Shown in pieces: positions 3,517 to 27,980 of a stretch of 64,000 bases of DNA (position 1 is its first letter; every line of letters starts with the position of its first letter). The stretch comes from Cymodocea nodosa. Lineage: Eukaryota > Streptophyta > Magnoliopsida > Alismatales > Cymodoceaceae. Below the pieces are notes generated by a model. The model had not been told where the DNA came from and searched no databases. It worked only from the letters and a program-made list of their open reading frames with translations. The position numbers and the translations under genes are program-made. The DNA lies in the NCBI GenBank assembly GCA_036874045.1, contig CM072341.1, positions 8,940,501 to 9,004,500 on the forward strand, in the 5' to 3' direction.

Positions 3517-4366
3517 ACTTGTATTTGTTAACTTCTACTTTTAACTTGGTTAATTTGTCTTTATGCTTATATCAATAATTTCTTTTTAGAAGTAAACAAA
3601 CAACCTTTCACACAAATTAGATATTAATTCTAATTTATTTTTTAACTGCAAGTGCACAGTGTATATTGTATTTGTGTGCAAGTACAGGTCGATCCCATAG
3701 AGAATTGAGTAAGAATTGTGTACTGCTCCATTTTTTTATATTATACTTAATGTGTTCAGTAATCACTTCGTTGAGTTATAGTTAACACAACGGATTAAGT
3801 TCGTAGAGTTGTGGTTAACTCAATGGACTAATCTCGTGGACTTAAGTTAACTTTACGAGCCTATCTTTCCAGTTTAATACTGTTATTTATAGAGGAATTC
3901 GACCAACCATTGGGCGATTCCATAGATTGTAAATAACATCAATTAAGCCCTTTAATGCTAGTTAATATTAGATTTATCATTAAGCAATACTAACATTCAA
4001 ATATTTCAAACCGTAACCATTAAAATCTTTAAGTATCTGGAATGAATCAATTTCAATAAACTGTAATACTATGTTCTATTTTTTGAATCAAACAAACATA
4101 AAACATTCACAATATTGACAATGATAACTTTAATCATGATACAAAACAAACAATACAACACTTAAATACTAAATATAAACACAGATAAGTTGTTATTTTT
4201 GGTATTTTTGTTTTGAGATGTTCATGAAAATGGGCGAAAGGTGAAATGTAAAAATCTCTATCGATAGTAAATACTTCTGTCACTACATGCTACGTGATTA
4301 CACCACTAAAAACTTAATCACTTACAATTCTGCCTCCTCTCCTTATAGAATCGCGAGTCTAGAATT
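3517..4366. repeat. 850-bp tandem repeat, copy 1
   Basis: This segment of the element A LTR is repeated immediately downstream. It covers the LTR end signature and the hairpin-rich stretch around 3770-3865. By eye only two differences from copy 2 were found, near 3689 and 3725, so the duplication is much younger than the LTR. Confidence 0.95.
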
Positions 4367-5216
4367 ACTTGTATTTGTTAACTTCTACTTTTAACTTGGT
4401 TAATTTGTCTTTATGCTTATATCAATAATTTCTTTTTAGAAGTAAACAAACAACCTTTCACACAAATTAGATATTAATTCTAATTTATTTTTTAACTGCA
4501 AGTGCACAGTGTATATTGTATTTGTGTGCAAGTACAAGTCGATCCCATAGAGAATTGAGTAAGAATTGTGTACTGTTCCATTTTTTTATATTATACTTAA
4601 TGTGTTCAGTAATCACTTCGTTGAGTTATAGTTAACACAACGGATTAAGTTCGTAGAGTTGTGGTTAACTCAATGGACTAATCTCGTGGACTTAAGTTAA
4701 CTTTACGAGCCTATCTTTCCAGTTTAATACTGTTATTTATAGAGGAATTCGACCAACCATTGGGCGATTCCATAGATTGTAAATAACATCAATTAAGCCC
4801 TTTAATGCTAGTTAATATTAGATTTATCATTAAGCAATACTAACATTCAAATATTTCAAACCGTAACCATTAAAATCTTTAAGTATCTGGAATGAATCAA
4901 TTTCAATAAACTGTAATACTATGTTCTATTTTTTGAATCAAACAAACATAAAACATTCACAATATTGACAATGATAACTTTAATCATGATACAAAACAAA
5001 CAATACAACACTTAAATACTAAATATAAACACAGATAAGTTGTTATTTTTGGTATTTTTGTTTTGAGATGTTCATGAAAATGGGCGAAAGGTGAAATGTA
5101 AAAATCTCTATCGATAGTAAATACTTCTGTCACTACATGCTACGTGATTACACCACTAAAAACTTAATCACTTACAATTCTGCCTCCTCTCCTTATAGAA
5201 TCGCGAGTCTAGAATT
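4367..5216. repeat. 850-bp tandem repeat, copy 2
   Basis: Head-to-tail second copy of 3517-4366. The first and second copies share a short AC overlap at their junction (AGAATTAC|TT against AGAATTAC|AA), pointing to a simple local duplication rather than a transposition. Confidence 0.95.
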
Positions 5217-5577
5217 ACAAGATGATCTCCTCTTCAGTATACTGGCATCAACCCGAAACCAAGGCTAGAAGCTTTACGATCTCTTGAGATTTGAGTCGGT
5301 GCTTGGTGAAAATGGCTTCCTTTCCTGAGACGTGATCACTCTTCACAATAGTTGTCAGGCACGTGTTTGGCTCGGAATCGACCCGACATCAGGAAAGTAT
5401 CCTCACAGACCTCCGATGGTTGGTGATTATGGTAATGTTGGTGATGTTGGTGAATTGTTGGTGATGGTGTGGATGATTCAGTGAACTTCCGACGTTGCCT
5501 GTAGTTAGCGCGGTCCTCCACCTTTACACACACTGCCATACACCACCAACCACACCTTCTTCATTTTTTCTCCTCTT

Positions 5578-5585
5578 CTTTTATA
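5578..5585 (-). promoter_or_regulatory. TATA box of element A LTR
   Basis: TATAAAAG on the - strand inside the conserved context AAATATAAAAGAA. The same box stands at the matching place in both LTRs of element B (10085 and 23843), so it is the likely RNA polymerase II promoter marking U3/R. Confidence 0.6.
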
Positions 5586-5839
5586 TTTCTTCAGTAGTAA
5601 TTGCTTCTGCTTTAGATGATCAGTTGAATTTCCTTCGTTCAGATCAACGATGGTGATTTCTTCTCCCTTCCACAAATGAATTCCTACGTGATACGTGCAA
5701 TCGTGGTTTTCCTTTGAATGTCCTGTTTCTGTAACGGCTATAATGGCATATTAGAAATTAAATGGTCCGTGGAGTTACAGATAACTCAATGGACTTACTT
5801 TGTTGATTTAACTATAAAACACATGCAATAAAGAAATAA

Positions 5840-6065
5840 GCTGCTAAGATAACGAGTTAAACATGTGTATCTCACGTGATATACTAAAGCATTTAAATTC
5901 AACATGTACATAATTCTAACTTAACGAGTTTAGATATATAACTTACAATTTTCACTTACTAACTTAACGAGTTCTCACGTGATCTTTTTATACCTTTAAA
6001 CCTATAACTCAATGAGTGGCACATGATCTTTTAATAAAAAGAACACTAACTCAATGAGTTGTTAC
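5840..6065 (-). promoter_or_regulatory. U3 cassette with repeated AACGAGTT and CACGTGA motifs
   Basis: Repeats of AACTTAACGAGTT (degenerate AACTCAATGAGT) alternate with CACGTGA or CACATGA cores, which resemble plant G-box/ABRE sites. The cassette lies in U3 upstream of the TATA box. It replaces the ATAGTTA-type array found at the same place in element B and resembles the cassette in the copia LTR at 39390-39620. Confidence 0.55.
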
Positions 6066-6355
6066 TATTCACTTAAATATTCTTTTAGCATTTAAAACAT
6101 AACTGTCTAGTACATGCAATATAACTCTCCGAAATAACAGAAACAGATACTAAAGAATAAAAAAACCAGCAACTTACCGATAGTTCAGAAATGTACTAAA
6201 TTAACGCTAATTCTTTGAAATTATGCAGATTCTTTCATTAAAGCATATAACAGTGCAATTATAACATAATGGCTTAATTCTCATATGATAAGCTAAATAT
6301 TATGCAATTAACCATCATTTAACCATTAATATTATGCACTTTTTCATTCTAAACA

Positions 6356-6367
6356 CTTCCCCCACAC
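6356..6367 (-). other. Polypurine tract of element A
   Basis: Purine-rich tract, GTGTGGGGGAAG on the - strand, directly next to the LTR start. It is preceded by the CTAGCAAAATTTAAG context usual for Athila-type elements. It primes plus-strand DNA synthesis. The same arrangement stands at 22837-22847 in B. Confidence 0.8.
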
Positions 6368-8106
6368 TTAAATTTTGCTAGTCCCTTAGCAAACTAAGAT
6401 CTAATTAGTTGATCTTTCTAAAGTGCTAGAATTAATTCTTCACCTAGTTCTTCTTCAAAATAATAAATTAGATTACTATATAGATTTTCTGTATGTTTCA
6501 GTAATCTATTTTAACTTTGTTTTCTCTTCTTCAACCTGCAAATATACTTAGAATATATGTAAATTACATACAAAATATATAAGCATCACATAGGTGTTAA
6601 TTATATTATCATTTGTTCTTCTTTTCAACATCTGCCATCCTAAATTTTCCGATATGATTTCCAGAATAAATTTCAAGTACATACGAATCAAAACACAATC
6701 CAATTTAATATGATTAAGACAAGTAGAATAAAGAATTGTATCTCAAATAAACAACTTCAAAAGTCTATTCTAGATTCATACTTCAGCAATTTTAGATAAT
6801 AGAACATATACTCAATTTAAAAGATATTTGTATTTCACAAAACACTTGTATCTTTTCAAAACAGTATATGCATATTTGTACTTTAAAAGTTAATTTGACA
6901 AGCTTGAATCATACAAGAGCTTTCTAGTGTACCCATGTATTGAGCTTTCAGTCAACAATCCCATATCTAATCAGGATCTTAGGTTGCTAGATTTAAAGAG
7001 TTCTTTTTCAGGTCAACAATCCTTACATACCTATCTGCTCAAGTACAAAAGGCTCGTGATCAAACAAGTCAATAAACTCTCAAAGTTTTTCTTTTTTATT
7101 TATTTATTTTAAACACAGTATATGTATGTATTTCATTAATACAGATGCAATAAAACACAAATTTCATATAGTCCTACTTCTATTAGTTACTGAAAATATG
7201 AATCTATGTCAATAAGCTCATACTTTTTCTATAGTTTAATAAGCTCTACACATAAATCATTCTACAAGTTTAATCAATCAAATTAAATGTATCCTTGATC
7301 ATATGTATTTAATTTAATCCAAAAATCAACATTTCAGCTCTTTCAGGATTTCAGATAATTTACTGAGTTTCAGTTAAGCATTCTGATTTCATTTTAAAAT
7401 CATGAAATTGTTAAACTCATAAAATTCAGCAACAACATAAGATACTATATCTAGATTTGTATGAATAATAAAATTTGTAGCATCTTATATAAGATTATAA
7501 ATATAACATTCAAGCAGTTATAGTTCTTAAAAAATTTACAATTTCAAATATCAGATAGTTACAGCAAATTCTTGATCAAAAAATTTTCAATTTCCACATA
7601 CAGAACTTTTATAGTACCATTCTAATTCCTCTAATTAACAAAAGTACATGGCTGTTACTTTAATTACCTCTCCCCCATACTTACATTTTGTATTGTCATC
7701 AATGTAAAAGATTTTACAATAAATACAATAATTATAGCAGGCATGAATATTATTTCGTTGACTTAGCATCTAACTCAACGAACTTAGTTGAAATGTAAAT
7801 TCAGGATAAGTAATCAATTACATACCTCGTCCTTTTGTATCTCCTTCAATATCTTTCGATTTTTGATTCTGAAAAACTTTTCATTCACACATAAAAGCAA
7901 AGTATATAACAACATAACAATTTAACTTGTTAAATCAGTGTCTTGTGTGGAACCCAGGCTCCTATGCCTTTGGTGGCTCACAAGCAAGTCAGTTGGTTTC
8001 CCAGAACAGATACCAACAAACTGGATTAATATTTTTTTTTTAGAATAAAACTAAAACTAAAAAAAATATGCAGAATACACACAACATTAAAAGCATAGAT
8101 CATAGT
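6368..8106 (-). other. Non-coding spacer of element A with second PPT-like tract
   Basis: No open frame of substance. It aligns with 21091-22836 of element B. A second PPT-like tract (GTATGGGGGAGAGG on the - strand) lies at 7667-7680, in the GACAATACAAAATGTAAG context that resembles the real PPT context. The stretch at about 6590-7020 also matches a module in the SIRE-type element at 43080-43534. At 7930-8030 is the conserved 3' flank of the F-box gene. Confidence 0.7.
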
Positions 8107-9057
8107 TTAAAAACATGATTGAAAAGTAGTAACAAATGGAATAAACGTGTTAGTCCATGCAAACTTTTTAGGCATAATTCTTTTTGCTATTAATTCTGTT
8201 TTAATGCAATTTGTTTTCCATTTTAGCTTGTAAACTTGCAGTATGTTATCAATACTAAATATAAGTGTATTACCATTAATGAAATGAAATGTAGAAAGGG
8301 ATCCTCTTGTGTTCCAAGATAATGTAGCTGTTTCTATTTCTATATCTATTTCAATATATTCTTCTTCCCACTTCCATTCATTTAGGTCTTTCATAATCCA
8401 TATTTGAAATTTCTTCAATTTATCCCACCATCTTATCAGACATAAAGTAGCATCATCATATTCATTATACCACATCCCCAATTGAATTTGATCGTATTCT
8501 GAAGTCGGTGGTTTAGCTATATCACTCGGTATAGGTAATATTTCTATAAAATCATCATAACTGTCTGTACTTACTATGTATAAATCAGATCTAAATGCAA
8601 TTGATATATTTGTGACTAGATATATATATCCATCAAGTATGACATGCATGCTGTTAAGTAATGATTTCTATCCTAGATATATCATAGTATTTTCAGTCCA
8701 AGATCTATTCAGAAAATTATACACACTTAAGCATAAATCTTCATCCCAATTTCTAGTTGGTCTCCAATAATATAATTTTTCAAGAATGGCCAGATTTTTA
8801 TCAGAAAATATTAAAGCTAACCCATAATTTTCAGTTGGTACTTCATATCTATTAGGCCTTCCTATATTCCATTCTTGTCTTGTGATAGGATTTCTAATCA
8901 AAATGTTGGGTAACAGAATTGCATACCTTGGTTTATAATTAATCCTTCATCCATTCCCATAATATGATCTATTCCTTTTAATGTATTGGGTGGAATTCCA
9001 GCAGTTTCTTCCATATTCAGATATTCATAGCAGATTGAATTACGATTAAATGACTTC
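8107..9057 (-). pseudogene. F-box-associated-domain gene, 3' part, cut by element B
   Basis: Carboxy-terminal part of an F-box protein, the substrate-binding half in SCF ubiquitin ligases of this family. It aligns codon by codon with the B copy from about codon 61 (base 20132) to the stop at 8107. Visible FBA-like motifs are RNPIT.EWNIGRPNR, LYYWRP, LCLIRWWD and FQIWIM. One in-frame TAG lies at about 8665, where B has CAG (Gln), and there is one frameshift near 8905-8945. The F-box itself is absent: element B's LTR begins at 9058 inside the gene, and about 240 bp of the family sequence upstream are missing at 24480. Pseudogene. Confidence 0.75.
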
Positions 9058-9279
9058 TGTTTAGAATGAAAAAGTGCATATTATTAACGGTTAAATGATA
9101 GTTAATTGCATAATATTTAGCTTATCATATAAGAATTAAGCCATTATGTTATAATTGCACTGTTATATACTTTAATTAGAATTACTACTTAATTTTGGGG
9201 AATTAATGTCAATTTAGTATATTTCTGAACTGTCGGTAAGTTGCAGGCTGTGAAATTCTTAAGTATCTGAATTTTCTGA

Positions 9280-9870
9280 TAATTCGGACAGTTATGTTTA
9301 ACATACTGAACATATTCGGATAGTTATGTTTAACAAACTAAACATATTCAGATAGTTATGTTTAACAGACCGAACATGTATTGGATAGTTATGTTTAAAT
9401 TGCCGACCAGTTATGTTTTGAAAGAATATTTTATTATTTCCTGAAGTACATGTGTCGAAACCATAATGCATGACTTAAGTGAACTTTCGGTGAGTTATCT
9501 ATAACTATCCGAAATTACAGTTGGGCATCGGATAGTTATATGTATAACTCTTCGAAATCTCTTTTTATTTATAAAATAGCTGAGGACACGTGTCATATTC
9601 TGGGAAAGTGACTTAAGTGGATTTTCGGTGAGTTATCTCTAATTATCTGAAATGCATCTAAGCATCGAATTGTTAGCTCTGTAACTCTCCGAAATATTAT
9701 TTTATGATTAAATTGCTGTTGACACGTGTCGAGATTTGGTAGATTTACTTAAGTTATATATCGGTGAGTTATCTGTAACTATTTGAAATGCATCTGAGCA
9801 TTGGATAGTTAAGTTTGTAAGTATCCGAAATGCACCTGAGTATCGGATAGTTAAATTTATGCACGTGTTT
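9280..9870 (+). promoter_or_regulatory. U3 array of GGATAGTTA/GTGAGTTA repeats with CACGTGTC boxes
   Basis: A degenerate tandem array with a period of roughly 130-145 bp. Each unit has CACGTGTC (or ATGTGTC), ACTTAAGT, then TCGGTGAGTTA and TAACTATCCGAAA in inverted order, able to form hairpins. CACGTGTC at about 9590 and 9723 is a perfect G-box core. The same motifs occur in the copia LTRs at 36160-36910 and 39110-39260. Likely enhancer sequence; function is inferred. Confidence 0.6.
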
Positions 9871-10084
9871 TATAGTTAAGTCAATGAAGAAAGTCTGTTG
9901 AGTTATCTGTAACTCCACAGACTATTTATTTTCTAATATGCCACTGTAGTGGTTGCAGAAACAGGATAGTTCGAAGAAAAACCACGATTGCATGTATTGC
10001 GTAGGGAGAAGAAATCATTGCCATTGATATGAATGAAGGAAATCCAACCGACCATTCAAGCAGAAGCAGTTACTATTGAAGAAA

Positions 10085-10092
10085 TATAAAAG
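10085..10092 (+). promoter_or_regulatory. TATA box of element B 5' LTR
   Basis: TATAAAAG, conserved at the same place in all three LTRs of this family in the window (5578 on the - strand, 23843 on the + strand). Confidence 0.6.
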
Positions 10093-11343
10093 AAAAGAAG
10101 AAAAAGAAGTAAAGGGTGCGTGTGTGATCGATGAACAGCTAGTGTATACAGAGGAGGAGCATTGAGCTTTCTGTAGACAGTATCAGCGATTCTCTGAAGT
10201 ATCACACCAACCATCGTTACCACCACCATATCCACCATAATCACCAACCATCAGAGGTCTGTGAGAATACTTTCTAGATGTCAGGTCGATTCCGAGCCAA
10301 ACATAGTGCTTGACAACCACTGTGAGGAGTGATCGCGTCGCGGGAAGGGAAGCCATTTTCACCAAGCGCCGACTCATATTTCAGGAGATCGTAAAGCTTT
10401 TAGCTTTGGCTTCGGGTTGATGCTTGTATGTTGAAGAGGAGATCATCTTGCAATTCTGGACTCGCGATTCTATAGGGAGAGGAGACAAAATTGTAAGTGG
10501 TTTAATTTTCAGTGGTGTAATCGCGTTGCAAGTAGTGTTGGAAGTATTTACTGTCAAGTGAGATTACTTTACATTTCACCTTTCACCCATTTCCATGTTC
10601 ATATTAAAACAAAAATACCAAAAACAATTTATCTATGTTTGTATGTTGTATTTGAGTATTGTATTGTTTGTATTGTATCGTGATTAATGTTATCTTTATC
10701 AGTGTTGTGATTGTTTTATGTTTGTTTTAGTTTTATAGTTTACTGAAATTGGTTCGTTCAAAAGACTTAAAAATTTTGATGGTTACTGTTTGAATTATCT
10801 GAATGTTAGTATTGCTTAATGATAAATCCAGTGTTTACTAACATTAAAGAGCTTAATTGATGCTATTTACAATCTGTGGAAAAGCTCAATGGTTGGCCGA
10901 ATTCCTCTGTAAATAGCAATATTAAAAAGAAAAGACAGGCTCGTGGAGTTAACTTAAGTCTATGAGGTTAGTCCATTGAGTTAGCTATAACTCAACGAAC
11001 TTTATCCGTTGAGTTAACTGTAATTCAACGGAGAGCTTATTGAATATATAAATTTGATTGTTAACAAACGGACAGTTCTAAATTCTTTAGCAATTCCCTG
11101 TGAGATCGACCTGTACTTGCACACTGATACAATAGACACTGTGCACTTGCAGTTAAAGTACAAATTGGAATTAATATCTAAATTGTATTAAAGGTTGTTT
11201 GTTTACTTCTAAAAGAAAGAATAGGCATAAAGATAAATTAACTAAGTAAAAATAGAAGTAACAAATCCAAGTTTTTCTAGTACGTTATTGGAGATCTAAT
11301 CAGTTTTTCTGGTGTAGTGCTGGGAAAAAACAAACAAGTTTTA

Positions 11344-11361
11344 TGGTGCCGTTGTCGGGGA
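11344..11361 (+). other. Primer binding site of element B
   Basis: TGGTGCCGTTGTCGGGGA closely resembles the PBS usual in Athila-type elements (TGGCGCCGTTGCCGGGGA), thought to pair with tRNA-Asp. The two differences are both C to T. It stands a few bases after the LTR end, as expected. Confidence 0.85.
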
Positions 11362-11400
11362 ATTGAATTGAATTGAATTGACTAGAATTGAATTGAATTA
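11362..11400 (+). repeat. (AATTG)n microsatellite after the PBS
   Basis: Pentanucleotide repeat of AATTG units, interrupted once by ACTAG, directly downstream of the PBS in the untranslated leader of element B. Confidence 0.9.
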
Positions 11401-11472: not shown

Positions 11473-12336
11473 ATGGCATATGCTTATGCTCAAAGATTTT
11501 TGAAACCTGTAATTAGCATATGTGAATTCTACAATTCTAAAGGACATGACATTTCTAACTGTTTGAAACTGAGACATTTATAGATGGTTAGATCCTATGA
11601 ACAACAAATGAATTATCCTCAATATAATAGAGCCAAGTATGAGAATTCTATAATTTACCCAACTAATGGTCAGTATAGAATGTGTAATATGTTGAGAGAC
11701 ACGGAAGTTTGGGATAGGTATGACAGACTGGAGCGTAGTATAGAGCAAAACCTGGACAAACTAGAATACTTTATGTGTCAGTAATAAGAAGTCAACCAAT
11801 TAAATTATAAGGAAGCATATTCAGAACCTAAAAAGGATATAATTTACGAAACTGAAAAAACCATAATGAAAATTGATCAAAAATTGAATGCAATGAAATT
11901 AGATGATCTACAAAGAAAACTAAAAGCATTAGATGAATATACAATGAAAATACAAGTTATGCAACAGGACAATGAAAATTATAATGTTATAAACCAGCAT
12001 AATTTGCAAAATATACAGCAAACAGAAAATATTAATGCAAGAGAATTTAAAGAATGCACTTTAAAACTAAAAACAATTGAAGATCATAATCACGAAAATG
12101 ATATACAAAAACATCATGAGAGTAACGAAAATCTGGAAGATGTATGTGTAACATTAAGATCTGGAACTGATATACCACCAAGAACTCAAAATGAAAATGA
12201 TATGAAGGTGGATAAGAGTAAAAATCAAAATGATAATGAAAATGTAATAGCTGAAAATCTAGAAATCACTGAAGAACAATCTAAATCTGCTAATGAAGCT
12301 AAAAATGATCAAACAAATCAAACGAAAGAAAAATAA
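11473..12336 (+). pseudogene. gag: gag C-terminal part: altered zinc knuckle and coiled coil
   Basis: ATG at 11473 opens a frame that runs, with stops at 11581, 11782 and 11785, into 12336 and on into protease. The first 36 codons hold a zinc-knuckle-like motif, CEFYNSKGHDISNC, spaced CX2YX4HX4C, so the second Cys is Tyr. A Lys/Glu/Asn-rich, probably coiled-coil segment follows, then VTLRSG, which precedes protease in Athila-type polyproteins. The capsid domain that should stand upstream of the knuckle is absent here; it is found instead at 18418-19761. Whether the short 5' frame is translated is unknown. Confidence 0.7.
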
Positions 12337-13070
12337 TCTTTTAAATCAAAATCTTTAGCACCCTATCTTGAAAGATTACAACAAACAATACTTGAAAACC
12401 AAGAAAAAATCAGAGAAATTTTTGAAAAAGTACAAGTTAACATTCCTTTGTTAGATCTATTGCAGAAAATGCCATGTGCTAAATTTCTAAAGGATTGGTG
12501 TACTAGGAAAAGAGAGCGAAAAGTTCTTAGAAATGTCTTTTTAGCTGAGCAAAGTAGTTCCTTATTTCTGCCACAAATTCCTAAAAAGTTATCTGATCTT
12601 GGAATCCCTGTTATATCATGCACCATAGGAAATACCATTCTAGAAAGAACCTTAATAGACTTAGGTGCAAGTATAAATGTTATGCCAAGTGATATATTTG
12701 CATTCATAGGATTAGAAGGCTTAACTCCTACTAGTATGGTTATTCAATTAGCTGATAGAAGTATAAGATACCCTAGAGGAAAAATAGAGGATGTCTTAAT
12801 TAAAATCAAAAATTTTATATATCCTATTGATATTGTAATTTTGGATTCCCAACAAATTAAGCATAAAAATAGTGATACATCTTTAATTTTGGGAAGGCCA
12901 TTTTTAGCAACATCAGGGGCTGTTATAAATTGTAAAACTGGAGTAATGAAATTAGTATATGGTAATGATGATACTCAATTAAATATTTTTAAACCAGAAA
13001 GGTTTGAGGAGTTAGAAATGTCCTTACATACCATAGACTTTTTAGAGGATGAAGGAGATATGTTAGATTA
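12337..13070 (+). pseudogene. pol: Athila-type aspartic protease region
   Basis: In frame with the gag part after a TAA at 12334 and open to 13071. The stretch around INIPLLDLLQKMPCAKFLKD matches the conserved region before protease in Athila elements. The active site is DLGAS, with Asp codon 12658; DLGAS is the usual form in this lineage. LADRS, YPRGKIEDV and LILGRPFLATSGA complete the retropepsin-like fold. At about 13062-13077 the frame shifts by one base into RT, either programmed or decay. The protease itself looks intact. Confidence 0.85.
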
Positions 13071-14870
13071 GATGATGTGATTCAAGAAGAATTAAATAGG
13101 CAAATCAATTATGAAACTTTAGAGGAAAGTGAAAGCATAAATATAGAAGGAGATCAGGAAGAAACTTATTTAGAAAATGATGATGTTCAATTAGAAGCTC
13201 TAGCTTCTTATAGGCAACATTTAGAATTAAAACCTTTTCCTCCTGAATTAACCTATATATTTCTGGAAGAGAAACGAACCTGTCCAATCATTATTACTTC
13301 AGATTTAAAAGAGGACCAAATAGCTAAATTAAAAGATGTAGTAAAAAGTTATAAAGAAGCGATAGGATGGACTATGACTGATATAAAAGGGTTAAGTTCA
13401 ACTTTATGCTGTCACCACATATATTTAGAAGAGAATGCTAAACCTGTTAGAATTCCTGAGAGGAGATTAAATCCAAACCTTAAAGAAGTAGTCAAGAATG
13501 AAATAGTGAAATGGTTAGATAATGACATAATTTATCTGATTTCTGATAGCTCGTGGGTTAGCCCAATCCATGTAGTTCCCAAGAAATCAGGATTAACAGT
13601 TATTAGGAATGAAAGTCAAGACTTGATACCTACTAGAATTCAATCAAGCTGGAGAGTATGTATAGACTATAGAAAGCTGAATGTTGTGACTAGGAAAGAT
13701 CATTTTCCCTTACCTTTTATAGATCAAATGTTGGAAAGATTAGTAGGGTAAGAATATTTTTGTTTCCTAGACGTGTATTCAGGTTATAATCAAATTCCAG
13801 TAACATTTGAGGATCAAGAGAAAACAACGTTCACCTGTCCTAATGGAACTTATGCTTTTAAGAGAATGCCATTCGGATTATGTAATGCACCAGCTACCTT
13901 TCAAAGGTGTATGTAGGGCATATTTACTGGAATGATTGAAGATTTCTTAGAAATATTTATGGATGATTTTACTGTATATGGCAACTCATATGAAGTTTGT
14001 TTAAGCAATTTAGACCAAATATTAAAATGCTGTGTGGAAAAAAATCTGGTTTTAAATTGGGAAAAATGTTACTTCATGGTTAAACAAGAAATAGTCTTAG
14101 GGCATGTTGTTTCTAAGAAAGGGTTGGAAGTAGATAAAGCTAAAATAGAAGTAATTTCTAATCTACCAGAACCTAAATCAGTAAAAGATATTAGATCATT
14201 TCTAGGACATGGTTTTTATAGAAGATTTATTAAAGACTTTAGAAAGATAGCTAGACCTTTAACTAATCTATTGAAAGATGTCCCATTTAACTTTGATAAA
14301 AATTGCAAGGAAGCATTTTTCAGACTTAAGACTAGTTTAATTTCAACTCCTATAATTCAAGCACTTGATTGGAACCATCCATTTGAATTAATGTGCGATG
14401 CATCTGATTTTGCTGTAGGAGCAGTGTTGGGACAGAAAATAGAAAAATCTCTTAGAATGATTTATTATGCAAGCAAAACCTTAAATGATGCTCAAGTTAA
14501 TTACACAACTACTGAAAAAGAACTATTAGTTGTAAGAGAAAAAGCTTATTCGAAGATTGTAAGAGAAAAAGAAAAAATTAAATTCTGGCATGATAGAAAA
14601 ATTATTCCAAAAAGCTTTGAAATAGGACAAGAAGTATATCTTTATATGGCTAGACTCCATAACCATCTAGGAAAATTAAGATCTAGATGGGTAGGACCTT
14701 ACATAGTTCGAAATATTTATCCTTATGGAGCTATTGAAATTGAAAATCCTAAAAATCAGAATATATTTAAAGTAAATGGACAAAGACTGAAACTTATTTT
14801 GAAAACATCAAAAAGCTCCTTTGGAATTATAGAAGAAGTTAGAGTAGAGGACTACTCGAGCTTTACTTAG
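13071..14870 (+). pseudogene. pol: Athila-type RT and RNase H fused to integrase C-terminus
   Basis: Reverse transcriptase and RNase H of a Ty3/gypsy element. RT motifs in order: WVSPIHVVPKK, CIDYRKLN, HFPLPFIDQML, YSGYNQIPV, GLCNAPATFQRCM and FMDDF (Asp codons 13962 and 13965). Stops at 13749 (TAA) and 13914 (TAG) break RT. RNase H shows CDASDFAVGAVLGQ (Asp codon 14397) and TTEKEL. At about 14535 the RNase H is joined in frame to the end of integrase (KFWHDRKI, RWVGPYIV, FKVNGQRL), so the rest of RNase H and the whole HHCC and DDE core of integrase are deleted. This copy is integration-defective. Confidence 0.9.
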
Positions 14871-15422
14871 TAAGAAATTAGTTTTTATGTTTATACATTT
14901 AAAAAAAAAATATAAAATATAAAAATCATTGCAGTTCAACTGACTAGATCCATCGGTATGACTGGAACATAAAAAATATGTACATTAATTTTCAGAAAAA
15001 ATGTTGGTTTTACTGAAACATAGTATCGGTTCAATTAGAAAAAATATTTAGGTCTAACCGAAACATAGTATCGATTAAACCAATAAAAAAATAGAAAAAC
15101 TATTATTTGTAGTATTTTTATTATTATATCTGTTTGTAAGGAGAGTCCGTTGAGTTATGCTTAACTCAACGAGCTTACTCCGTTGAGTCTTGAGTTAGTC
15201 AACGAGCTTATTCCGTTGAGTTAACTGTAACTCAACAGAGTACTATAGTTAAGACCGCAGATGATATAGTAATAGTTGGTTCGGGAAATGACCCGATTAC
15301 CCGCCTAAACTTAGGGCTTATTTAAACTAAAACCTAGGGTTTTAGGGGCATTATCCGGCAAATCATTTAGAATCTAGAATAGTAGAAATCAGAGCGATTC
15401 CGTGCTATTGAGTAACTCCACG
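14871..15422 (+). other. Spacer between pol and ORF3 with hairpin repeats
   Basis: No coding potential seen. Around 14950-15080 a short motif with GAAACATAGTATCG is repeated. At 15146-15240 lie hairpin-forming repeats, CCGTTGAGTTA-N-TAACTCAACG type, the same class as in the LTR and between the downstream genes. Confidence 0.7.
15146..15240. repeat. GTTGAGTTA/TAACTCAAC hairpin repeats, spacer 1
   Basis: Inverted pairs TCCGTTGAGTTA..TTAACTCAACGAG at 15146-15173 and CCGTTGAGTTA..TAACTCAACAG at 15213-15240, with a degraded unit between them. Stems are about 9-10 bp with a short loop. Confidence 0.8.
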
Positions 15423-17649
15423 ATGAGGAAGATGACACTTGAATTCTGGGAAGAGGCTGTTGATACATCAAAATTACTGAAGGAATCAGAAGAATGGCAC
15501 ACGCGGTAGAAGATCAGAAATATGACGAGAGAAAAAAAGTTACAGAAGGTAGAATCTGAACTTTTTAGATTAAGAAGAATATTAGTAGATTGTGGTATAT
15601 AAATACCCCAGATAATGGAGACATGAATTAGAGTAGCAATAGAAATTGCAGTTAGTAAAGAAAGAAAAATCAGGCCGAACAATGAAGTAGCCCTAGAGCT
15701 AATCCAGTGCAAGGCCAGATTATGGTTCAAAAGGCGCATTGTTGGTTGTGGAAGTTGGGAAATATGGCGGCAGGAACAACAAGAGGAAGAACAGGAGGAG
15801 CCGACTGCTAAAAGACTTGTTCCTGAGGAACAACAGCCAGGACCTTCAGTTCCACCATTTAAGCCGTTGGCACGAGCAGAAATGATGGGGCCTTCGACTA
15901 AAGAAGAGTTAAAGGAATTTCAAGCACTAGTTCAAGTTGGGAAAAACCAAGGAGAATCAAAAGATTTGGTAGTGGCTAAAGCACACCTAGTGTTTGATGC
16001 ACTTTACAAAAAGAGGGTTGCAGAAAAGTTGAAAGCCCAATATAAAATCAAAATGGAACAACATCAAGAAGCTACTACTAAACCTGCTGCAAAAGGAGAT
16101 GAAGCTGGTCCTTCGAGACCAGTAATTATAGAAAAAGTTAAATAGGAAAAGGCAGTACCTGTGGCTCGAAGGCTTGCAGAGCTTACTTTTGTAGATTTAA
16201 TCTCAAAAGAAGAAGAGGAAGAACAGACACAATTAATCAGAAAAAGGAAAGGAAAAGAGATAATGCTTGACTATCAAGAAGAAATTAAATCTGAAGCATC
16301 AATAGCAGCAGGGCCTATGGAGCCAATTTTTATAAACCTGCTATCCGATTCTAAGGAGGAGTAGGAGGAGCTGCAACAGCAGGAGCAAAGAAAAGAAGAA
16401 AATTAGGCTGAAATTAGTTTGCAGCCTGTACAAGAAGAAACAGAAATTAGGGCAAAGACTGAGTTGCTCGTGACTCCATCCCAATCTGTTACAGAATCAG
16501 AGAGAACAGTAACAGAACAGATTGGTAGTCAAGAGGAAGAAGAAAGAGCAGAAAATGAAGAGGCTGAAAGAAGCCATTTGGACAAAAATAACTTCATAGA
16601 TTCCTTTGAAGAGCAAAAAACTCTTCAGCAATTTATGGAAAGAATTTAAGACAGAGTGGAGAGTTCTGCCGGCTCACTACCACAAATAGAAATTTAGGAA
16701 TCTGTAGAGAATGTTCAAATGCAGCCTATAGAAGAGGAAGAGCAAGAACAAACCCCTCTAAAACAACAAAGTCACCTTCCTGACCTAGCTAAAATAATAA
16801 TTTTAAATGAAGTACATTTTTGTAGTCAGGAAGCTTATACCAAATACCAAGAAATAAGGGGTTACAATATTATTTACAGTAGACCAGTAAATTGGGTTGG
16901 AATGCAAGAAATCAAAGATTTATTTGAATTCCAAGGTCTACTGCAATTCATTTCTCAAGAAAGAGGGCATGTAGTATATGAGAATTTAGGGCCCTGTTTT
17001 TATGCAAATTTAAGAGAAGGAGAAGGAGGATTAATTTCCAACGTGGAGGAAGCTGATGTACAGATAACACCAGAGCCTCTCCACAACATTTTTGGATTGA
17101 AGAATGAAGGACTAAAAATTTTGGAAGACAACTGCCGTCGAGTGGACTGAACAGCAAATTAAGGATTGTTTAGCTATCAATCCTGGTGTGCCTTTATTAA
17201 ACAGATTGAAGCATTTAAGTGGTAAAGCACACATGGTAGCTAACATTCTAATTAAAAATGTCTATCAATGACAGGGCCATGACATAGAATTAAGTCAATT
17301 TGTCAAATGGGCCACATATGCAGTTGTAAACAGGGTTCAAATAAATTGGTCTGTAGTTTTTATCTCCAAGTTGAAAGTAGTAAAGAAAAAATTGTTTTAT
17401 GGAGATTTGATTCCACTGCTGATGGTGGATTGTATTGATTTCACGAAATGGACATAAAAAAGGATCAGATCAAGAACCATTTTAGTGAAGGAATACAAAA
17501 ATTTTGTAGCTACAGAGATAGCTGTACCTTCTAGAGGCATTATAGGAGTTGTAGAAAGAATTAATCAATTAGAATTTCAATTAGAAAAACTCCAGAAGAA
17601 AGTAGATGAACTTAGGCATAGAGATGAAATTGTATTGTTCGTCTACTAG
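15423..17649 (+). pseudogene. ORF3, plant 'transposon protein'-like gene of element B
   Basis: A frame of about 740 codons starting at ATG 15423, broken by in-frame stops in its first 250 codons, near 16143, 16362, 16405, 16647 and 16693, and by one frameshift near 17135. The first half is Glu-rich and low in complexity. The second half has a conserved domain: QEIKDLFEFQGLLQF, YENLGPCFYANL, ITPEPLHNIFGLKNEG, then VNRVQINW and KKLFYGD after the frameshift. It ends with a probable coiled coil (INQLEFQLEKLQKKVDELR). This resembles the family annotated as 'putative plant transposon protein', seen in other plant retroelements as an extra gene. Function is unknown. No membrane segment was seen, so an Env role is not supported. 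The same gene stands in element A and in the SIRE-type element. Confidence 0.7.
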
Positions 17650-18151
17650 TGTAAAATTGTATGAAATTATATGATGTACTTGTAATGTAATTGATTCATA
17701 TTAATGAATATAATTTTTCAGATGCAATTTTCATACATGTCTTGGATGTGAAATGAATGGAATTTATTGAATATTATGTAATTTGTGGAACTTTATGAAT
17801 GAATATGTAACAGATTTACAATTTGCTGAATGACAGGATAAATGCATCTAGACAACGAAGTAAGTCCGTTGAGTTAAACGTAACTCCACGAGGTCAGTAA
17901 TATAATATAAGGTCACTCCGTTGAGTTATCTGTAACTCAACGAAGTTAGTTCGTGGAGTTAGCAACAGTAACCGACTTTGTTCTGTTGAGTTATCTATAA
18001 CTCAACGAGGTTAGTTCGTCGAGTTAGCAACAGTAACCGACTTTGTTCCGTTGAGTTATCTATAATTCAATGAGGTTAGTTCATGGATTAAGCAGAATAG
18101 TTATTCTTTTAACCACGAACGAAACTTCGTCGGCTTAGTAGTTACTAAAAT
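17650..18151 (+). other. Spacer between ORF3 and capsid gag
   Basis: AT-rich, non-coding. It carries the 66-bp hairpin minisatellite at 17864-18085. The 3' part is conserved with element A (rc of 26250-26309 and 27946-28560), where a solo LTR has been inserted. Confidence 0.7.
17864..18085. repeat. 66-bp minisatellite of hairpin repeats, spacer 2
   Basis: CCGTTGAGTTATCTGTAACTCAACGA-type palindromes begin at about 17918, 17982 and 18048, so the period is 64-66 bp, with a half unit at 17864. Between them stands GTTAGTTCGTGGAGTTAGC followed by AACAGTAACCGAC. Each palindrome has a stem of about 10 bp and a 4-base loop. Confidence 0.85.
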
Positions 18152-18252
18152 TTGAAATTAATAGTGGTACACGTACCCATAAAAATAGGAACCACGATGC
18201 ACGTTGCAAGACACGTTCTTGCAATGAGATTTATTCACTTTATGGATGTGCA

Positions 18253-18264
18253 GTATATATATAA
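18253..18264 (+). promoter_or_regulatory. Possible internal promoter before capsid gag
   Basis: TATATATAAAAC lies about 155 bp before the gag ATG and is preceded by ACGT-core motifs (TACACGTACC, GCACGTTGC, GACACGTTC at 18170-18215). Element A keeps the same layout on the - strand (TATAAATATAG near 26160 with the same ACGT motifs upstream). Conservation in both copies supports a function, but transcription is not shown. Confidence 0.4.
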
Positions 18265-18388
18265 AACAATTTACGAGTTACTAGCACTTTTAAAAGAAAG
18301 GAGAATGCGTTGGAGGAACTGGAAGGAGAAGCAGCTGATTCAACTTCATCTGACAATAAATATTTATTGAATGGAAAGCTTCAGACTG

Positions 18389-18394
18389 GTATGT
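18389..18394 (+). promoter_or_regulatory. Possible 5' splice site before capsid gag
   Basis: CTG|GTATGT is a good plant donor and stands 29 bases before the gag ATG. The motif GGTATGTAA is also present in element A, in the same place. Together with the acceptor-like site at 19941 it could remove gag and join the leader to the F-box gene. Confidence 0.35.
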
Positions 18395-18417
18395 AATTAA
18401 TCTTCTGCTATTTATTT

Positions 18418-19761
18418 ATGAGCAGATGGACCCATTCTCTAAGCACTAAACGATTAGTAAGAACACCTACCTAGGAATTTTCATTGCAAAGGAGTACTGA
18501 AAAATTTTCTGAACTGAACTTTAACGAAATTCTTTGGGGTGTAGCTAACCTTTCTTTAAAAGAGAACGTAGAGATGACTGCTCTAGTAGAAAAATCATTA
18601 GGAGAGATTCTGTATCCTGAATTAGTTGATGAACCTTCTTGTATTCGATTTCCAAACTTTGAGGGAGATAGGTTTGAACTGAAATCTAATTATATTAGTC
18701 AATTGCCACATTTTCATGGATTAGAAAGAGAGGATGCCTATTATTTCTTTAGAGAATTTAATGAAGTTTGTCAAATGATGAAAATGCCGAACATGAGTAT
18801 AGATGCTATTAAACTTAGATATATCCCTTTTTCTTTAAAAGACACAACTAAGAGATGGTTATATACTCTGTCGCTTGATTCAATTTCTACATGGACTGAA
18901 TTTTACTTTGTTTTTTTGGAAAAATATTATCCAACACATCAAACGATTAAAAAGAAGAAGGAAATATTAATGTGTAGCCAAAAATAGGGTGAATCATTCT
19001 GGAAATATTTTGAAAGATTTAAAGATTTACTGACTCAATGTCTACATCATGCAATGAGTAAAGCACAATTAATAGGTATAATTTATGAAGGCATAGATGT
19101 TTCAACGAAATCTTTATTAGAATCTACTTGTCAAAATGGATTTTTAAAGTTATGTAGTGAAGAAGCATGGGCATATTTAGAAAACTTTACAAAAAGAACT
19201 AGACAGTGGGAAAATTTGGTTGAAGCTATTGCAGATAAAAAAATATTGCCAAGAGGAATGCATGAAATAGATTCAAGTACAATGCTTGAGGTGAAATTAA
19301 ATGAATTAACAAAGAAAATAGAAGAGTTATCATTAAATCAAAAGCTAGCAGAAAAGAATGCAAACATAACTGATTTAGATATTATTTATGCTAGAAACCA
19401 GAGAGATAACTTGGGAAATTCTTATAATCCTAATTGGAGAAATCACTCGAATTTATCTTGGAGAAACAACAATTTTTAGGGAGGAGAAAATATAAATGAG
19501 AAGAACATAAGTTATGAAGCATTAATTGAACAAGGATCTAGAATAGAGAAATTAGAAAAGATAATCTAACAATTAAACAATCGTCTAGATTTTGTATTTG
19601 GAAATGCTACAATTCAAAATCAGAATAGAAATATACCACTTAGATAGAAGGAACCAATGGAAGGTAGACCTATTGGAGGATTGCCAATACAAGCAATACC
19701 TAATCCTATCAATAAAACGGTTAATGAAATTGATACCCCTTCTGGGAGGATAGTTGAATGA
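18418..19761 (+). pseudogene. gag: Athila-type gag capsid gene, displaced downstream of pol
   Basis: Structural capsid protein of a Ty3/gypsy element. Starts at ATG 18418, aligned with ATG 25986 of element A (MSTWIRS there). The Retrotrans_gag-type core is clear: LPHFHGLEREDAYYFFREFNEVC, LRYIPFSLKDTTKRWL, STWTEF and FLEKYYPTHQTIKKKKEI, then FERFKDLLTQC and SEEAWAYLENF. A coiled segment and NPNWRNHSNLSW follow, as in Athila gag after its zinc knuckle. The knuckle itself is missing here and lies at 11505-11560. In-frame stops are at 18472, 18985, 19477, 19567 and 19645, mostly TAG. It stands after ORF3 and before the F-box gene, a most unusual place for gag. Confidence 0.85.
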
Positions 19762-19950
19762 AGCAGCATATCTGAAGCAACTATCTGTGTATATATATGT
19801 TTTTATTTATAGTTAATAGTATCGTAGAGTCAGTCCTTAACTCAACGAACTTATTCTGTTGAGTTATGCCTTAACTTCACTAGGGTGTGCAGTAGTTATG
19901 TTAATTTTTGTCTCTGCTAAATTTTTGTTTGTGTTATATAGAATCGACAA
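19762..19950 (+). other. Spacer between capsid gag and F-box gene
   Basis: Contains a hairpin repeat at 19823-19880 (CCTTAACTCAACGAAC and CTGTTGAGTTATGCC). It ends in a splice-acceptor-like stretch: CTAAATTTTTGTTTGTG then TTATATAG at 19941, ten bases before the F-box ATG. In element A the part up to position 19890 is conserved, and there an LTR was inserted at GGTGT. Confidence 0.6.
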
Positions 19951-21090
19951 ATGGAATTGATGCAATTACCATTGGATGCACTAAGGGAAGTACTGAGTAA
20001 CTTGTCAGCTAAAGATCTGTGCAGGCTGTGTTGTGTATTAAAGGAAATTAAAGACTGTATTGAAGAAAAATATTTTCAAGGACTACAAGCTGCAAAAATG
20101 ACTAAGATTAGAGATGGATTCATATGGAGGTCATTTAATCGTAGTTCAATTAATCATGAATATCTGGCTATGGAAGAAACTACTGGAATTCCACCCAATA
20201 CATTAGAAGGAATAAATCATATTATGGGGATAGATGAAAGATTAATCATATACAATATGAGACCAAAGTATGCAAGTTTATTATTACCTGATATTTTGAT
20301 AAGAAATCCTATAACAGGAGAAGAATGGAATATAGGAAGACCTAATAGATTTGAAGTACCAATTGTAAATTGTGGATCGGCTTTAATATTTTCTGATAAA
20401 AATTCTGCAATTCCTGAAAATTTATATTATTGGAGACCTATAGGAAAATTGGGGTGAAGATTTACGCTTAAGTGTGTATAACTTTCTGAATAGATCTTGG
20501 AATGAAATATTATAATATATCTAGGACAGAAATCATTAATTAACCAAACACATGTCATACTAGATGGATATATATATCTTGTTACAGATATATCAATAGC
20601 ATTTGGATCTGATTTATACATAGTGAGTATAGATAGTTATGATGAATATATAGAAATTTTACCTATACCGAGTGATATAGCTAAACCACCATTTACAGAA
20701 TTTAATAAAATTCAAATAGGAATGTGGTATAATGAAGAAGATGATTCTACTTTATGTCTGATAAGATGGTGGGATGAACTGATGAAATTTCAAATATGGA
20801 TTATGGAAGACATAAATGAATGGAAGTGGGAAGATGAGTATATTGAAATAGATGTAGAAATAGAAATTGCTACATTACCTTGGAACCAAAAAGGATCCCT
20901 TTTTGCATTTCATATCATTAATGGTAATACACTTCTATTTAGAATTTATAATATATTACACGTTTACAAATTAAGAAGGAACAAGAACTGCATGAAAACA
21001 GAATTAATAATAAGAAGAACTATGCCTAAAAAGTTTGCTTGGATTGATACATTTATTCCATTTGTTCCTACTTTTCAATCATGTTCTTAA
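19951..21090 (+). pseudogene. F-box protein gene carried by element B
   Basis: F-box proteins recruit substrates to SCF ubiquitin ligases. ATG 19951 opens a gene of about 380 codons. The F-box lies at residues 4-45 (LPLDALREVLSNLSAKDLC, with LCCVLKEIKDCI after it). An F-box-associated-like domain follows: IRNPITGEEWNIG, LYYWRP, LCLIRWWDELMKFQIWIMED, ending FIPFVPTFQSC. The frame is broken twice, by an extra base near 20447 and a lost base near 20504, which restores the frame. Between them lie stops, about 57 bp in all. Otherwise it is free of stops for 500 bp on one side and 580 bp on the other. The gene stands between the capsid gag and the PPT, and a copy is in element A, so it belongs to the family. 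It is intronless, so retro-capture of a host mRNA is plausible. Host origin is inferred. Confidence 0.75.
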
Positions 21091-22847: not shown

Positions 22848-24087
22848 TGTTTAGAATGAAAAAGTGCATATTATTAACGGTTAAATGATGGTTAATTGCA
22901 TAATATTTAGCTTATCATATAAGAATTAAGCTATTATGTTATAATTGCACTGTTATATGCTTTAATTAGAATTACTGCTTAATTTTGGGGAATTAATGTC
23001 AATTTAGTACATTTCTGAACTATTAGTAAGTTGCAGGCTGTGAAATTCTTAAGTATCCAAATTTTCTAATAATTCAGACAGTTATGTTTAACATACCGAA
23101 CATATTCGGACAATTATGTTTAATAGACCGTACATGTATCAGATAGTTATATTTAAATTGCCAAATAGTTATGTTTTGAAAGAATATTTTATTATTTCCT
23201 GAAGTACACGTGTCGAAACCATAATGCATGACTTAAGTGAACTTTCGGTGAGTTATCTATAACTATCTAAAATTGCAGTTGGGCATCGGACAGTTATATG
23301 TATAACTCTCCAAAATCTCTTTTTATTTATAAAATAGTTGAGGACACGTGTCATGTTCTGAGAAAGTGACTTAAGTGGATTTTCGGTGAGTTATCTTTAA
23401 CTATTCGAAATGCATCTAAGCATCGGATAGTTAGCTCTGTAACTCTTTAAAATGTTATTTTATGATTAAATTGCTGTTGACACGTGTCGAGATTTGGTAG
23501 ATTTACTTAAGTTATATATCGGTGAGTTATCTATAACTATCCGAAATGCATTTGAGCATCGGATAGTTAAGTTTGTAAGTATTCGAAATGTACCTAAGCA
23601 TCAGATAGTTAAATTTATGCATGTGTTTTATAGTTAAGTCAATGAAGAAAGTCTGTTGAGTTATCTGTAACTCCACAGACTATTTATTTTCTAATATGCC
23701 ACTATAGCGGTTGCAGAAACAAGACAGTTGGAAGAAAAATCACGATTGCATGTATTGCCCAGGGAGAAGAAATCATCGCCGTTGATATGAATGAAGGAAA
23801 TCCAACCGACCATTCAAGCAGAAGCAGTTACTATTGAAGAAATATAAAAGAAAAGAAGAAAAAGAAGTAAAGGGTGTGTGTGTGATCAATGGACGGCCAG
23901 TGTATACAGAGGAGGAGCAACGAGCTTTCTATAGACAGTATCGGCGATTCTTCGAAGTATCACACCAACCATCGTTACCACCACCATATCCACCATAATC
24001 ACCAACCATCGGAGGTTTGTGAGAATACTTTCTAGATGTCGGGTCGATTCCAAGCCAAACACAGTGCCTGACAACCACTGTGAGGAG
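22848..24087 (+). repeat. 3' LTR of element B, truncated
   Basis: Starts TGTTTAGAATG and follows the 5' LTR closely to the equivalent of 10329, so about 1.24 of 2.28 kb remain. It shares the U3 array (23040-23620), though the array has lost part of a unit compared with 9280-9450, and the TATA box at 23843-23850. It ends in GGAG, shared with the LTR fragment that follows: a deletion junction with 4-bp microhomology. Confidence 0.85.
23843..23850 (+). promoter_or_regulatory. TATA box of element B 3' LTR
   Basis: TATAAAAG at the position equivalent to 10085 in the 5' LTR. Confidence 0.55.
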
Positions 24088-24474: not shown

Positions 24475-24480
24475 ACACCC

Positions 24481-24540
24481 TTGTGGAGTTAGGTCATAAC
24501 TCAACAGACTAAGTTCGTTGAGTTAAGTAATAACTCTACG
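24481..24540. repeat. Hairpin repeat in element A, gag/F-box spacer
   Basis: GGTCATAACTCAACAGAC and TTCGTTGAGTTAAGT pairs, matching spacer 3 of element B (19823-19880) in reverse complement. Confidence 0.75.
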
Positions 24541-24636
24541 ATACTACTAACTATAATTAAACTTACATTTTTTCTTTTTATATTTTTATGTTTTTCTGCT
24601 TACTATATTATACATAATTACTTCAGTTATACTGTT

Positions 24637-25986
24637 TCATTTAACTACCCTCCTAGAGGAGGTATCAATTTCATTAATAGTTCTATTGATAGGATTAGGT
24701 ATTGCTTGCATTGGCAATCCTCCAGTAGGTCTAACTTTCATTGATTCTTTCTATCTAAGGGGTATATTTCTATTTATATTTTGATTTTGAATTGCAGCAT
24801 TTCCAAATACAAGATCTAGATGATTGTTTAATTGTTGGATTATCTTTTCTAATTTCTCTATTCTAGATCCTTGTTCAATTAAAGCTTCATAACTTATATT
24901 TTTGTCATTTATATTTTCTCCTCCCTAAAAATTGTTGTTTCTCTAAGATAAATTCAGGTGATTTCTCCAATTAAGGTTATAAGAATTTCCAAAGTTATCT
25001 TTCTGGTTTCTAGCATAAATAATAGCTAAATCATTAACGTTTGCATTCTTTTCTGCTAGCTTTTGATTTAATGATAACTCTTCTATTTTCTTTGTTAATT
25101 TAGTTAATTTAACTTCAAGCATAGTGCTTGAATCTATTTCATGCATTCCCCTTGGCAATATTCTTTTATCTACAATAGCTTCAGTTGAGTTTTCCCATTG
25201 TGTAGTTCTTTTTGCAAAGTTTTCTAAATATGCCCATGCTTCTTCACTACACAGTTTTAAAAATCCATTATAACAAGTAGATTCTAATAAAGATTTCGTT
25301 GAAACATCTATGCCTTCATAAATTATACCTATTAATTGTGCTTTACTCATTGCATGATGTGGACATTGAGTTAGAAAATCTTTAAATCTTTCAAAATATT
25401 TTCAGAATGATTCTCCCTATTTTTGGCTACACATTAATATTTCTTTCTTCTTTTTAATCGTTTGATGTGTTGGATAATATTTTTCTAGAAAAATAGAGCA
25501 AAATTCAGTCCATGTAGAAATTGAATCAGGTGATAGAGTCTATAACCATCTCTTAGTTGTGTCTTTTAAAGCAAAATGGATATATCTAAGTTTAATAACA
25601 TCAATACTCATGTTTGGTATTTTCATCATTTGACAAACATCGTTAAATTCTCTAAAGAAATAATAGGCATCCTCTCTTTCTAATCCATGAAAATGTGGCA
25701 ATTGACTAATATAATTAGATTTTAGTTCAAACCTATCTACCTCAAAGTTTGGCAATCGAATACATGAAGGTTCATCAACTAATTCAGGATACAGAATTTC
25801 CCCTAATGGTTTCTCTACTGGAGTAGTCATATCTTCGTTCTCTTTTAAAGAAAGGTTAGCTACATTCCTAAGGATTTCGTTAAAGTCTAATTCAGAAAAT
25901 ACTTTAGTATGTCTCTGTGTTGAAGAATCCTGTGTAAGTGTTCTTACTAATCTTTTAGTGCTAGGAGAACGAATCCATGTGCTCAT
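24637..25986 (-). pseudogene. gag: Capsid gag of element A
   Basis: Second copy of the displaced capsid gene. ATG at 25986 (MSTWIRSPSTKRLVR). The first block is open to 25540 and has LPHFHGLEREDAYYFF and KDTTKRWL. A stop follows the RWL motif at about 25537, then further stops near 25410 and 24940, with an open block at 24943-25350. All are in one frame, down to the TGA at 24637. As in element B there is no zinc knuckle. It stands between ORF3 and the F-box remnant, so the odd gene order is older than the separation of A and B. Confidence 0.85.
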
Positions 25987-26049
25987 AAACTCTTAACATA
26001 AAGTAAACTAACAGAAGATTAGTTACATACCAGTTTGAAGCTTTATACT

Positions 26050-26309
26050 CAGTAAATAGTTGTTGATGGATGAAGTTGAATCAGCTGCTTCTCCTTCTAG
26101 TTCCCCAACGAAGTTCCTTTTCTTTCAAAAGTGCTGGTAACTTGTAAATAACATTCTGTTCTATATTTATAATGCACGTCCATAAAGTAAATGAATCTCG
26201 TTGCAAGAACGTGTCTTGTAACGTGCAGTGTGGTTCCTATTTTTATGGGTACGTGTGTCATTTCTAATTTCAAATTTTAATAATTGCTAGATCTACAAAG
26301 TTTCGTTTG
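26050..26309 (-). promoter_or_regulatory. Leader/possible promoter of capsid gag in element A
   Basis: Matches 18145-18400 of element B: ACGT-core motifs (near 26180-26260), a TATAAATATAG box near 26160, and the GGTATGTAA donor-like site near 26030. Element B has the same parts in the same order. Confidence 0.35.
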
Positions 26310-26314
26310 TGGCT
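26310..26314 (+). other. Target-site duplication TGGCT, left copy
   Basis: TGGCT directly before the TGTTTGG start of the solo LTR; repeated at 27941-27945. Confidence 0.85.
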
Positions 26315-27945: not shown

Positions 27946-27980
27946 AAAAGAATAACCATTTAGCTTAATCCATGAACTAA

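Follow-up and report, generated by a model that had tools for sequence, protein, structure and literature searches.

A capsid gene behind pol in Athila-type retrotransposons of Cymodocea nodosa

The window analysed here, a 64,000-nucleotide stretch of the Cymodocea nodosa genome (contig CM072341.1, positions 8,940,501 to 9,004,500), contains an Athila-type long terminal repeat (LTR) retrotransposon, element B, nested within a minus-strand relative, element A. From its 5' end, B carries an LTR, a primer binding site (PBS), a leader, an ATG, a zinc-knuckle motif, an LRSG motif, protease, reverse transcriptase (RT), ribonuclease H (RNase H), ORF3, a capsid gag, an F-box gene, a polypurine tract (PPT) and a 3' LTR. 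The same placement of gag behind pol in B's family and in four related families suggests a layout passed on by descent, as opposed to damage in one copy. We hardly doubt that the pol-first order is real and inherited, and B and A are probably members of an inherited pol-first Athila-type clade with the expression and origin proposed below. An earlier note, made from the letters of this stretch, had described a gag split in two with its capsid downstream of pol; this observation is confirmed, and it extends further than the note had stated.

Results

We searched the window's own genome (374.6 Mb) with B gag and with the N-terminal part of Pol (PolN), which gave 5792 and 5485 first-look candidates, respectively; 150 of each were scored. 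Five other copies were chosen for context among loci with ORF3 before gag, and 10 kb upstream of each was fetched. All five upstream stretches ran from LTR through PolN, RT/RNase H, the integrase interval, ORF3 and a spacer to the gag start; part of the protease is deleted in L033, and L035 has a deletion that reaches from PolN into RT. The five downstream stretches ran through gag, spacer, F-box and PPT region to the LTR, which was interrupted in L036. LTR pairs of four copies were 94.3-95.9% identical over 1129-2038 bp (Kimura two-parameter distance 0.042-0.061), and the L035/L040 copy was bounded by a 5-bp target duplication, CACTC/TACTC, with one mismatch. The recurrence of this order between the matched LTRs of other insertions does not support the earlier proposal that an F-box-PPT-LTR block had landed inside gag.

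The relative orientation of the two genes was compared between the 150 gag places and 149 of the 150 PolN places. Gag lay 6.7-8.2 kb downstream of PolN in all six same-strand pairs found within 20 kb, one of which is B itself; four opposite-strand pairs, 13-18 kb apart, are taken to be different insertions. ORF3 sequence was present upstream in 23 of 30 gag loci (L001 being B, and L030 having only the last 123 bp within its stretch) and was missing, or reduced to its last ~122 bp, in seven. F-box sequence followed gag in 29 of the 30 loci (40 bp of it in L030), with L011 cut by another element. Chance nesting, in which the capsid would have inserted on its own or be left over from some other element next to ORF3 on its downstream side, has a probability close to nil. 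Nested elements do fill the window, and inverted transposon copies flank A's gag, but the junctions are shared by five of five other copies inside matched LTRs, gag is downstream in every same-strand pair, and integrase is followed by gag in four further families described below.

Among 20 5' stretches examined, 14 had an LTR followed by PolN, two were rearranged with PolN and four were without PolN; the fifteen of these that were additional to the copies above comprised nine with a clean LTR-leader-PolN arrangement, two rearranged and four without PolN. No gag match stood ahead of PolN in any of the 20, and none of them yielded the case that the earlier note had named as refuting, an intact member with gag right after the PBS. 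The open frames of gag hits did not exceed 454 aa (0 of 150, B gag) or 498 aa (0 of 83 hits of a second query, P0136), as a stand-alone gag predicts; PolN open frames reached 1069 aa. L041 showed an inverted match to the spacer upstream of gag. The earlier note had also asked for a member with its capsid at the 5' end. One such locus, L009, was found, with the order LTR, PBS, spacer pieces, gag, F-box. It retains parts of the spacers normally ahead of ORF3 and gag, and its gag comes first because pol and ORF3 were lost.

The knuckle-like motif and VTLRSG that the earlier note had placed ahead of the protease were seen after the ATG at 11473, with one cysteine missing from B's knuckle. That no capsid domain lies there was also borne out: the leader from PBS to ATG is ~130 nt (129 nt), and a Pfam scan of 11788-12333 gave no match of any kind. 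The corresponding 207-aa frame of L032, knuckle included, gave no Pfam match. An intact CCHC motif starts at residue 17 of the Pol N-terminus in four of the five other copies, and an intact Pol knuckle was present in four of six further Pol starts examined. Behind ORF3, at ~18423-19761, we found the capsid without knuckle as described, broken by stops. In B gag, PF03732 matched on both flanks of an in-frame stop, with E 6e-6 for one match and 7e-5, marginally below the cutoff, for the other; in an open gag copy the match reached E 6e-20. Gag had no CCHC motif in any of 30 loci of B's family, B included. When compared with the gags of other plants, it was collinear from the N-terminus to beyond the capsid, the NPNWRNHPNLSW segment included, and the alignment gap coincided with the knuckle. 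With CCHC absent from gag and present on Pol, capsid and knuckle are therefore in different genes in B's family. The best Protein Data Bank matches to the predicted gag model were the PNMA2, dArc1 and Arc capsids, all weak (E 7e-3 to 9e-3, low template-modelling scores). Relatives were sought in viral contigs, prokaryote genome contigs and Protein Data Bank sequences, and none was found there.

With P0136, a canonical poppy gag, as query, 83 of 6484 first-look candidates in the genome were scored. In six of six copies (L056-L061), integrase, or in L058 its C-terminus, was followed by gag, and ORF3 was absent between the two in all six. By sequence, these copies represent four families (C17/C15, C8/C16, C12 and C1). 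Between families whose gag frame is open, among them B's, the capsids were 43-52% identical; the gag of L056, compared by tblastx only, was 58% identical to B's. The CCHC knuckle is kept in all five other-family gags that were read (L056, L057, L062, L063 and L064), and in both families whose 5' side was fetched (L065, L066) a second knuckle with LRSG stands at the Pol start, just downstream of a PBS in L066. The description of gag as split in two thus holds for B's family and fails for the sister families, in which gag is whole with its own knuckle. In a FastTree phylogeny of capsid regions, six pol-first sequences from four of the five families formed one clade (support 0.96); it lies close to gags of other plants, among them P0126, a gag-protease fusion protein of Tasmannia, to which it is joined by a node without a support value. 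From the 33 database gags, P0151, P0152, P0154-P0156 and two with fewer than 130 aligned capsid residues were left out of this tree, as were P0001-P0003.

We infer the following order of events. Gag would first have been duplicated, and the 5' copy would have been reduced to its 3' half, leaving knuckle and LRSG attached to Pol; the complete copy would have been relocated behind pol, once; and the 3' gag of B's family would then have lost its knuckle, with the work divided between two pieces. Duplication is preferred over a clean split because the sister gags are whole with their knuckle and two families have a second knuckle on Pol. The layout of the clade would be LTR, PBS, a block of knuckle, LRSG, protease, RT, RNase H and integrase, an optional ORF3, gag, an optional F-box gene, PPT and LTR. 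The earlier note had considered circular permutation; as an event private to these copies it finds no support in the six same-strand pairs or in the integrase-then-gag order of four other families. An ancient permutation, in which ORF3 became fused, in a one-LTR circle or tandem array, to the leader and gag of the unit that followed, and the product came to lie between LTRs again at an early date, is unlikely. It would fit the LTR palindromes in the spacers and the PBS stub after A's LTR, as in tandem elements. However, LTR similarity in the B-family spacer upstream of gag consists of short palindrome units only, no PBS-like motif was found in the six integrase-gag spacers of the other families, and permutation alone does not yield two knuckles.

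The gags of A and B are 91% identical, compared with 84% and 81% for their flanks, and differ by a single 6-bp indel. Relative to the neutral expectation, the ratio of nonsynonymous to synonymous changes (N/S) between them was 0.56 in frame (P 0.001), as against 0.97 and 1.20 in the off frames. Across 31 gag rows, singletons comprised 148 N and 46 S changes versus 63 N and 51 S among repeated variants (p 2e-4; off frames 0.11 and 0.58). Singletons that look neutral, together with N-depleted repeated variants, would be expected if copies were under selection until they inserted and decayed from then on. Relative to B, no gag indel was present in 22 of 30 other rows, and the terminator was conserved in 28 of 30. 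The 3' gag very probably once served as the working capsid gene. The F-box gene showed a hint of constraint between A and B (0.53 and 0.69 of neutral, P 0.01 and 0.04). The selection test left out three of the 30 loci for F-box and eight for ORF3.

It is quite improbable that the pol-first copies form a non-autonomous lineage mobilised by the Gag of canonical elements, with the 3' gag as a relic. Mobilisation in trans has been proposed for pol-less Athila families of Arabidopsis (PMC2410132, in part), stops are found in many of the copies here, and the search for gag-first elements rested on specific queries. Against this stand the selection signature, the indel-free and terminator-bearing rows just given, and the finding of a Gag-Pol-length frame in none of the 83 and 150 scored gag hits. 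Both gags of the window are broken by stops, and the gag stops in L002-L030 recur at identical codons across separate copies. Programmed readthrough of the three in-frame gag stops common to A and B was considered and rejected, with a sense codon at those positions in 21-25 of 30 other rows; recurrent mutation is preferred because stops also recur at further sites in separate copies. The recurring stops are possibly a trace of cytosine methylation.

With Pol first after the leader, full-length RNA should give Pol without Gag; it would be translated into Pol, which bears its own nucleocapsid-like knuckle and therefore could reach particle RNA without fusion to Gag. The earlier note had held that a capsid so placed needs its own expression route, and we agree, gag being downstream of both pol and ORF3. 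The capsid would come from a separate, shorter mRNA. The route that we favour clade-wide, at about even chances, is a gag mRNA made by splicing just upstream of the gag start. By eye, TAG occurs 3-4 nt ahead of the gag ATG in four of six other-family spacers, from three of the four families, a raw count without a chance baseline. L059 and L061, which belong to one family, have a CTAACATGCAGG block and GTAAGTGT in common, the rest of their spacers having diverged. A donor-like site, GTATGTAA, lies ahead of gag in 23 of the 30 loci of B's family; no acceptor was found before the gag ATG in this family.

An internal promoter, with an LTR-like palindrome and TATA cassette for each downstream gene, is our second choice clade-wide and is better supported in B's family; overall we consider it possible and somewhat doubtful. 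The palindrome GTTGAGTTA...TAACTCAAC has five matches before the TATA-like box of B's LTR, six, nine and two in spacers 1-3, and zero in pol, ORF3, gag and F-box. Four other copies have 4-6 motifs in spacer 1 and 7-8 in spacer 2, TATA-like runs occur in every spacer, and gene23 of maize Grande has its own promoter (PMC7264820, in part). However, the distance from palindrome to TATA varies between spacers, the palindrome counts cover B's family only, and the repeat could act as RNA.

The boundaries of B's LTRs were set by BLAST of the window against itself (Table 1). The true LTR length, ~2.28 kb, was measured on the 5' copy because the 3' LTR is truncated at 24087. Most of the integrase is gone from B; a full integrase was present in both copies checked by Pfam, L032 and L033. 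Among the 120 protease matches listed, the named proteins are from plants; the homologues may be Athila proteins. An F-box gene stands behind gag in B's family (also L036-L040) and, in one other family, at L056:3069-4229; its predicted protein model is poor (pLDDT 37). The P0 protein of poleroviruses acts against host silencing, and a similar role for the F-box product is a guess by analogy.

Table 1. Features of elements B and A in the window
Feature	Position	Strand	Remarks
Element B	9058-24087	+	Athila-type
5' LTR of B	9058..11336	+	begins TG, ends ACA; palindromic repeats 10943-11030, then TATA-like box 11045
PBS, tRNA-Asp type	11344..11365	+	similar motif in L031-L033; type per PMC1142308 (in part)
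N-terminal part of Pol	11473..12336	+	knuckle-like motif, linker, VTLRSG; without capsid domain
Protease	12337..13071	+	PF13650, just under its cutoff; 1456 homologous proteins
RT and RNase H	13053..14870	+	internal deletion fuses them to integrase C-terminus
Spacer 1	14871..15460	+	palindromic repeats 15149-15240
ORF3	15461..17660 (limits approximate)	+	A and L032 match PF20167 weakly, short of its cutoff
Spacer 2	17661..18422	+	palindromic repeats 17868-18070; TATA-like run from 18254; gag start next
Capsid gag	18423..19761	+	all but knuckle; in-frame stops in B; own terminator
Spacer 3	19762..19950	+	palindromic repeats
F-box gene (PF00646)	19951..21090	+	broken in B; open over 386 aa in L040
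3' untranslated segment	22224..22847	+	ends in PPT GGGGGAAG
3' LTR of B	22848..24087	+	truncated where a DNA-transposon fragment adjoins
Element A, ORF3 then capsid gag	24475..29817	-	ORF3 29817-28363, gag 26312-24475; insert 26314-27940 interrupts
Element A, remainder beyond nested B	3470..9057	-	F-box, PPT, LTR, PBS stub

Element A was seen to have ORF3 and then capsid on the minus strand, in the same order as B and as the earlier note had read it, with this stretch interrupted by the DNA-transposon-like insert and by B. A's gag is flanked by that insert and by an inverted 95% fragment (24084-24475); the ends resemble those of PIF/Harbinger elements. A transposon-borne capsid was considered here and rejected: the 95% inverted repeats (24084-24475 and 26314-26705) are the transposon insert and the fragment at B's truncated LTR. 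The LTR of A runs from 6355 to about 3487 and contains an 850-bp tandem duplication. Past A's LTR (3470-6355) follow a few bases, the PBS stub and Copia coding sequence, as if it lay between two internal regions. The end of the window, 35946-64000, is a tandem array of a 12,036-bp unit in two full copies and one partial copy, at least 99.9% identical; each unit has Copia-type LTRs, and between them a Copia gag-pol fragment runs (at 43535 in the first) into part of an Athila-like ORF3.

Discussion

We lean slightly towards a reading in which the clade is ancient and has abandoned the Gag-Pol fusion: its genomic RNA would encode Pol alone, which would enter particles by binding RNA through its own knuckle, the capsid would be made from a spliced or internally promoted 3' gene, one family would have removed the knuckle of Gag, and surveys would miss such elements by discarding unexpected domain orders. 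Several observations count against our account. The splicing and internal promoter routes are both guesses from sequence. L061, L056 and B's family lack the TAG ahead of the gag start codon. The palindrome also occurs elsewhere in the LTR (five matches) and once each in the pol and ORF3 of L031, and the TATA-like run of spacer 2 is, in related copies, no better conserved than its surroundings. Many copies carry stops. The selection test is noisy: for ORF3, a control in one of the off frames likewise reached p 0.0075, whereas the true frame gave 0.11, and F-box gave 0.69. The tail of the 3' gag and the LRSG region are collinear, yet with E-values no better than those of shuffled sequence. Finally, L056 is outside the gag tree, and in that tree the node linking the clade with P0126 lacks a support value.

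The reported domain order of Ty3/gypsy elements is GAG-PROT-RT-RH-INT (PMC6317226, in part), and, as the earlier note had said, gag behind pol is not the known order. Within pol, the PROT-RT-RH-INT order of the superfamily is kept here; GAG comes after INT. The same plant survey removed all elements with an unexpected domain order as likely mispredicted, and its authors blame divergence and decay for the 159 Ty3/gypsy elements in which GAG was not identified (PMC6317226, in part). Among the open-licence papers that our searches listed, none reports gag behind pol in its title or abstract opening.

Recombination takes place among the Athila families of Arabidopsis, and their mobilisation may occur in trans (PMC2410132, in part). 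As here, gag, pol and env blocks are shuffled in the recombinant and pol-less families, and gag is under selection in those thought to be trans-mobilised; unlike here, none is described with gag behind pol in the available part of that source (PMC2410132). Gene23 of maize Grande, one of several kinds of additional ORF behind pol, resembles the 3' gag in that it lies upstream of the 3' LTR, past pol, and is expressed on its own; it differs in being an antisense accessory gene (PMC7264820, in part).

A gag-first layout with Gag-Pol fusion is treated as the rule for LTR retrotransposons, and a thriving pol-first clade shows that this rule can be broken. Two questions thereby become testable: how Pol gets into particles, and what sets the Gag:Pol ratio when there is no fusion. 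We infer that Pol is translated apart from Gag, as the layout demands. In foamy viruses Pol is likewise made apart from Gag and is packaged through RNA binding, and Gag is still the first gene; this is a working likeness with no relationship claimed.

The known system nearest to B's family is the Athila lineage (Athila, Calypso, Cyclops, Diaspora). The two share a tRNA-Asp-type PBS, present near the LTR end in B (11344), in its copies and in L066, as well as a long LTR, protease, RT, RNase H and integrase, a gag of the same protein family, and an ORF3 between pol and the 3' LTR, seen downstream of pol in B's family with a weak PF20167 match. They differ in that the Athila lineage has gag in front, as reported for Diaspora (PMC1142308, in part), whereas B's family has gag behind integrase and ORF3, its own knuckle at the Pol start and an F-box gene at its 3' end.

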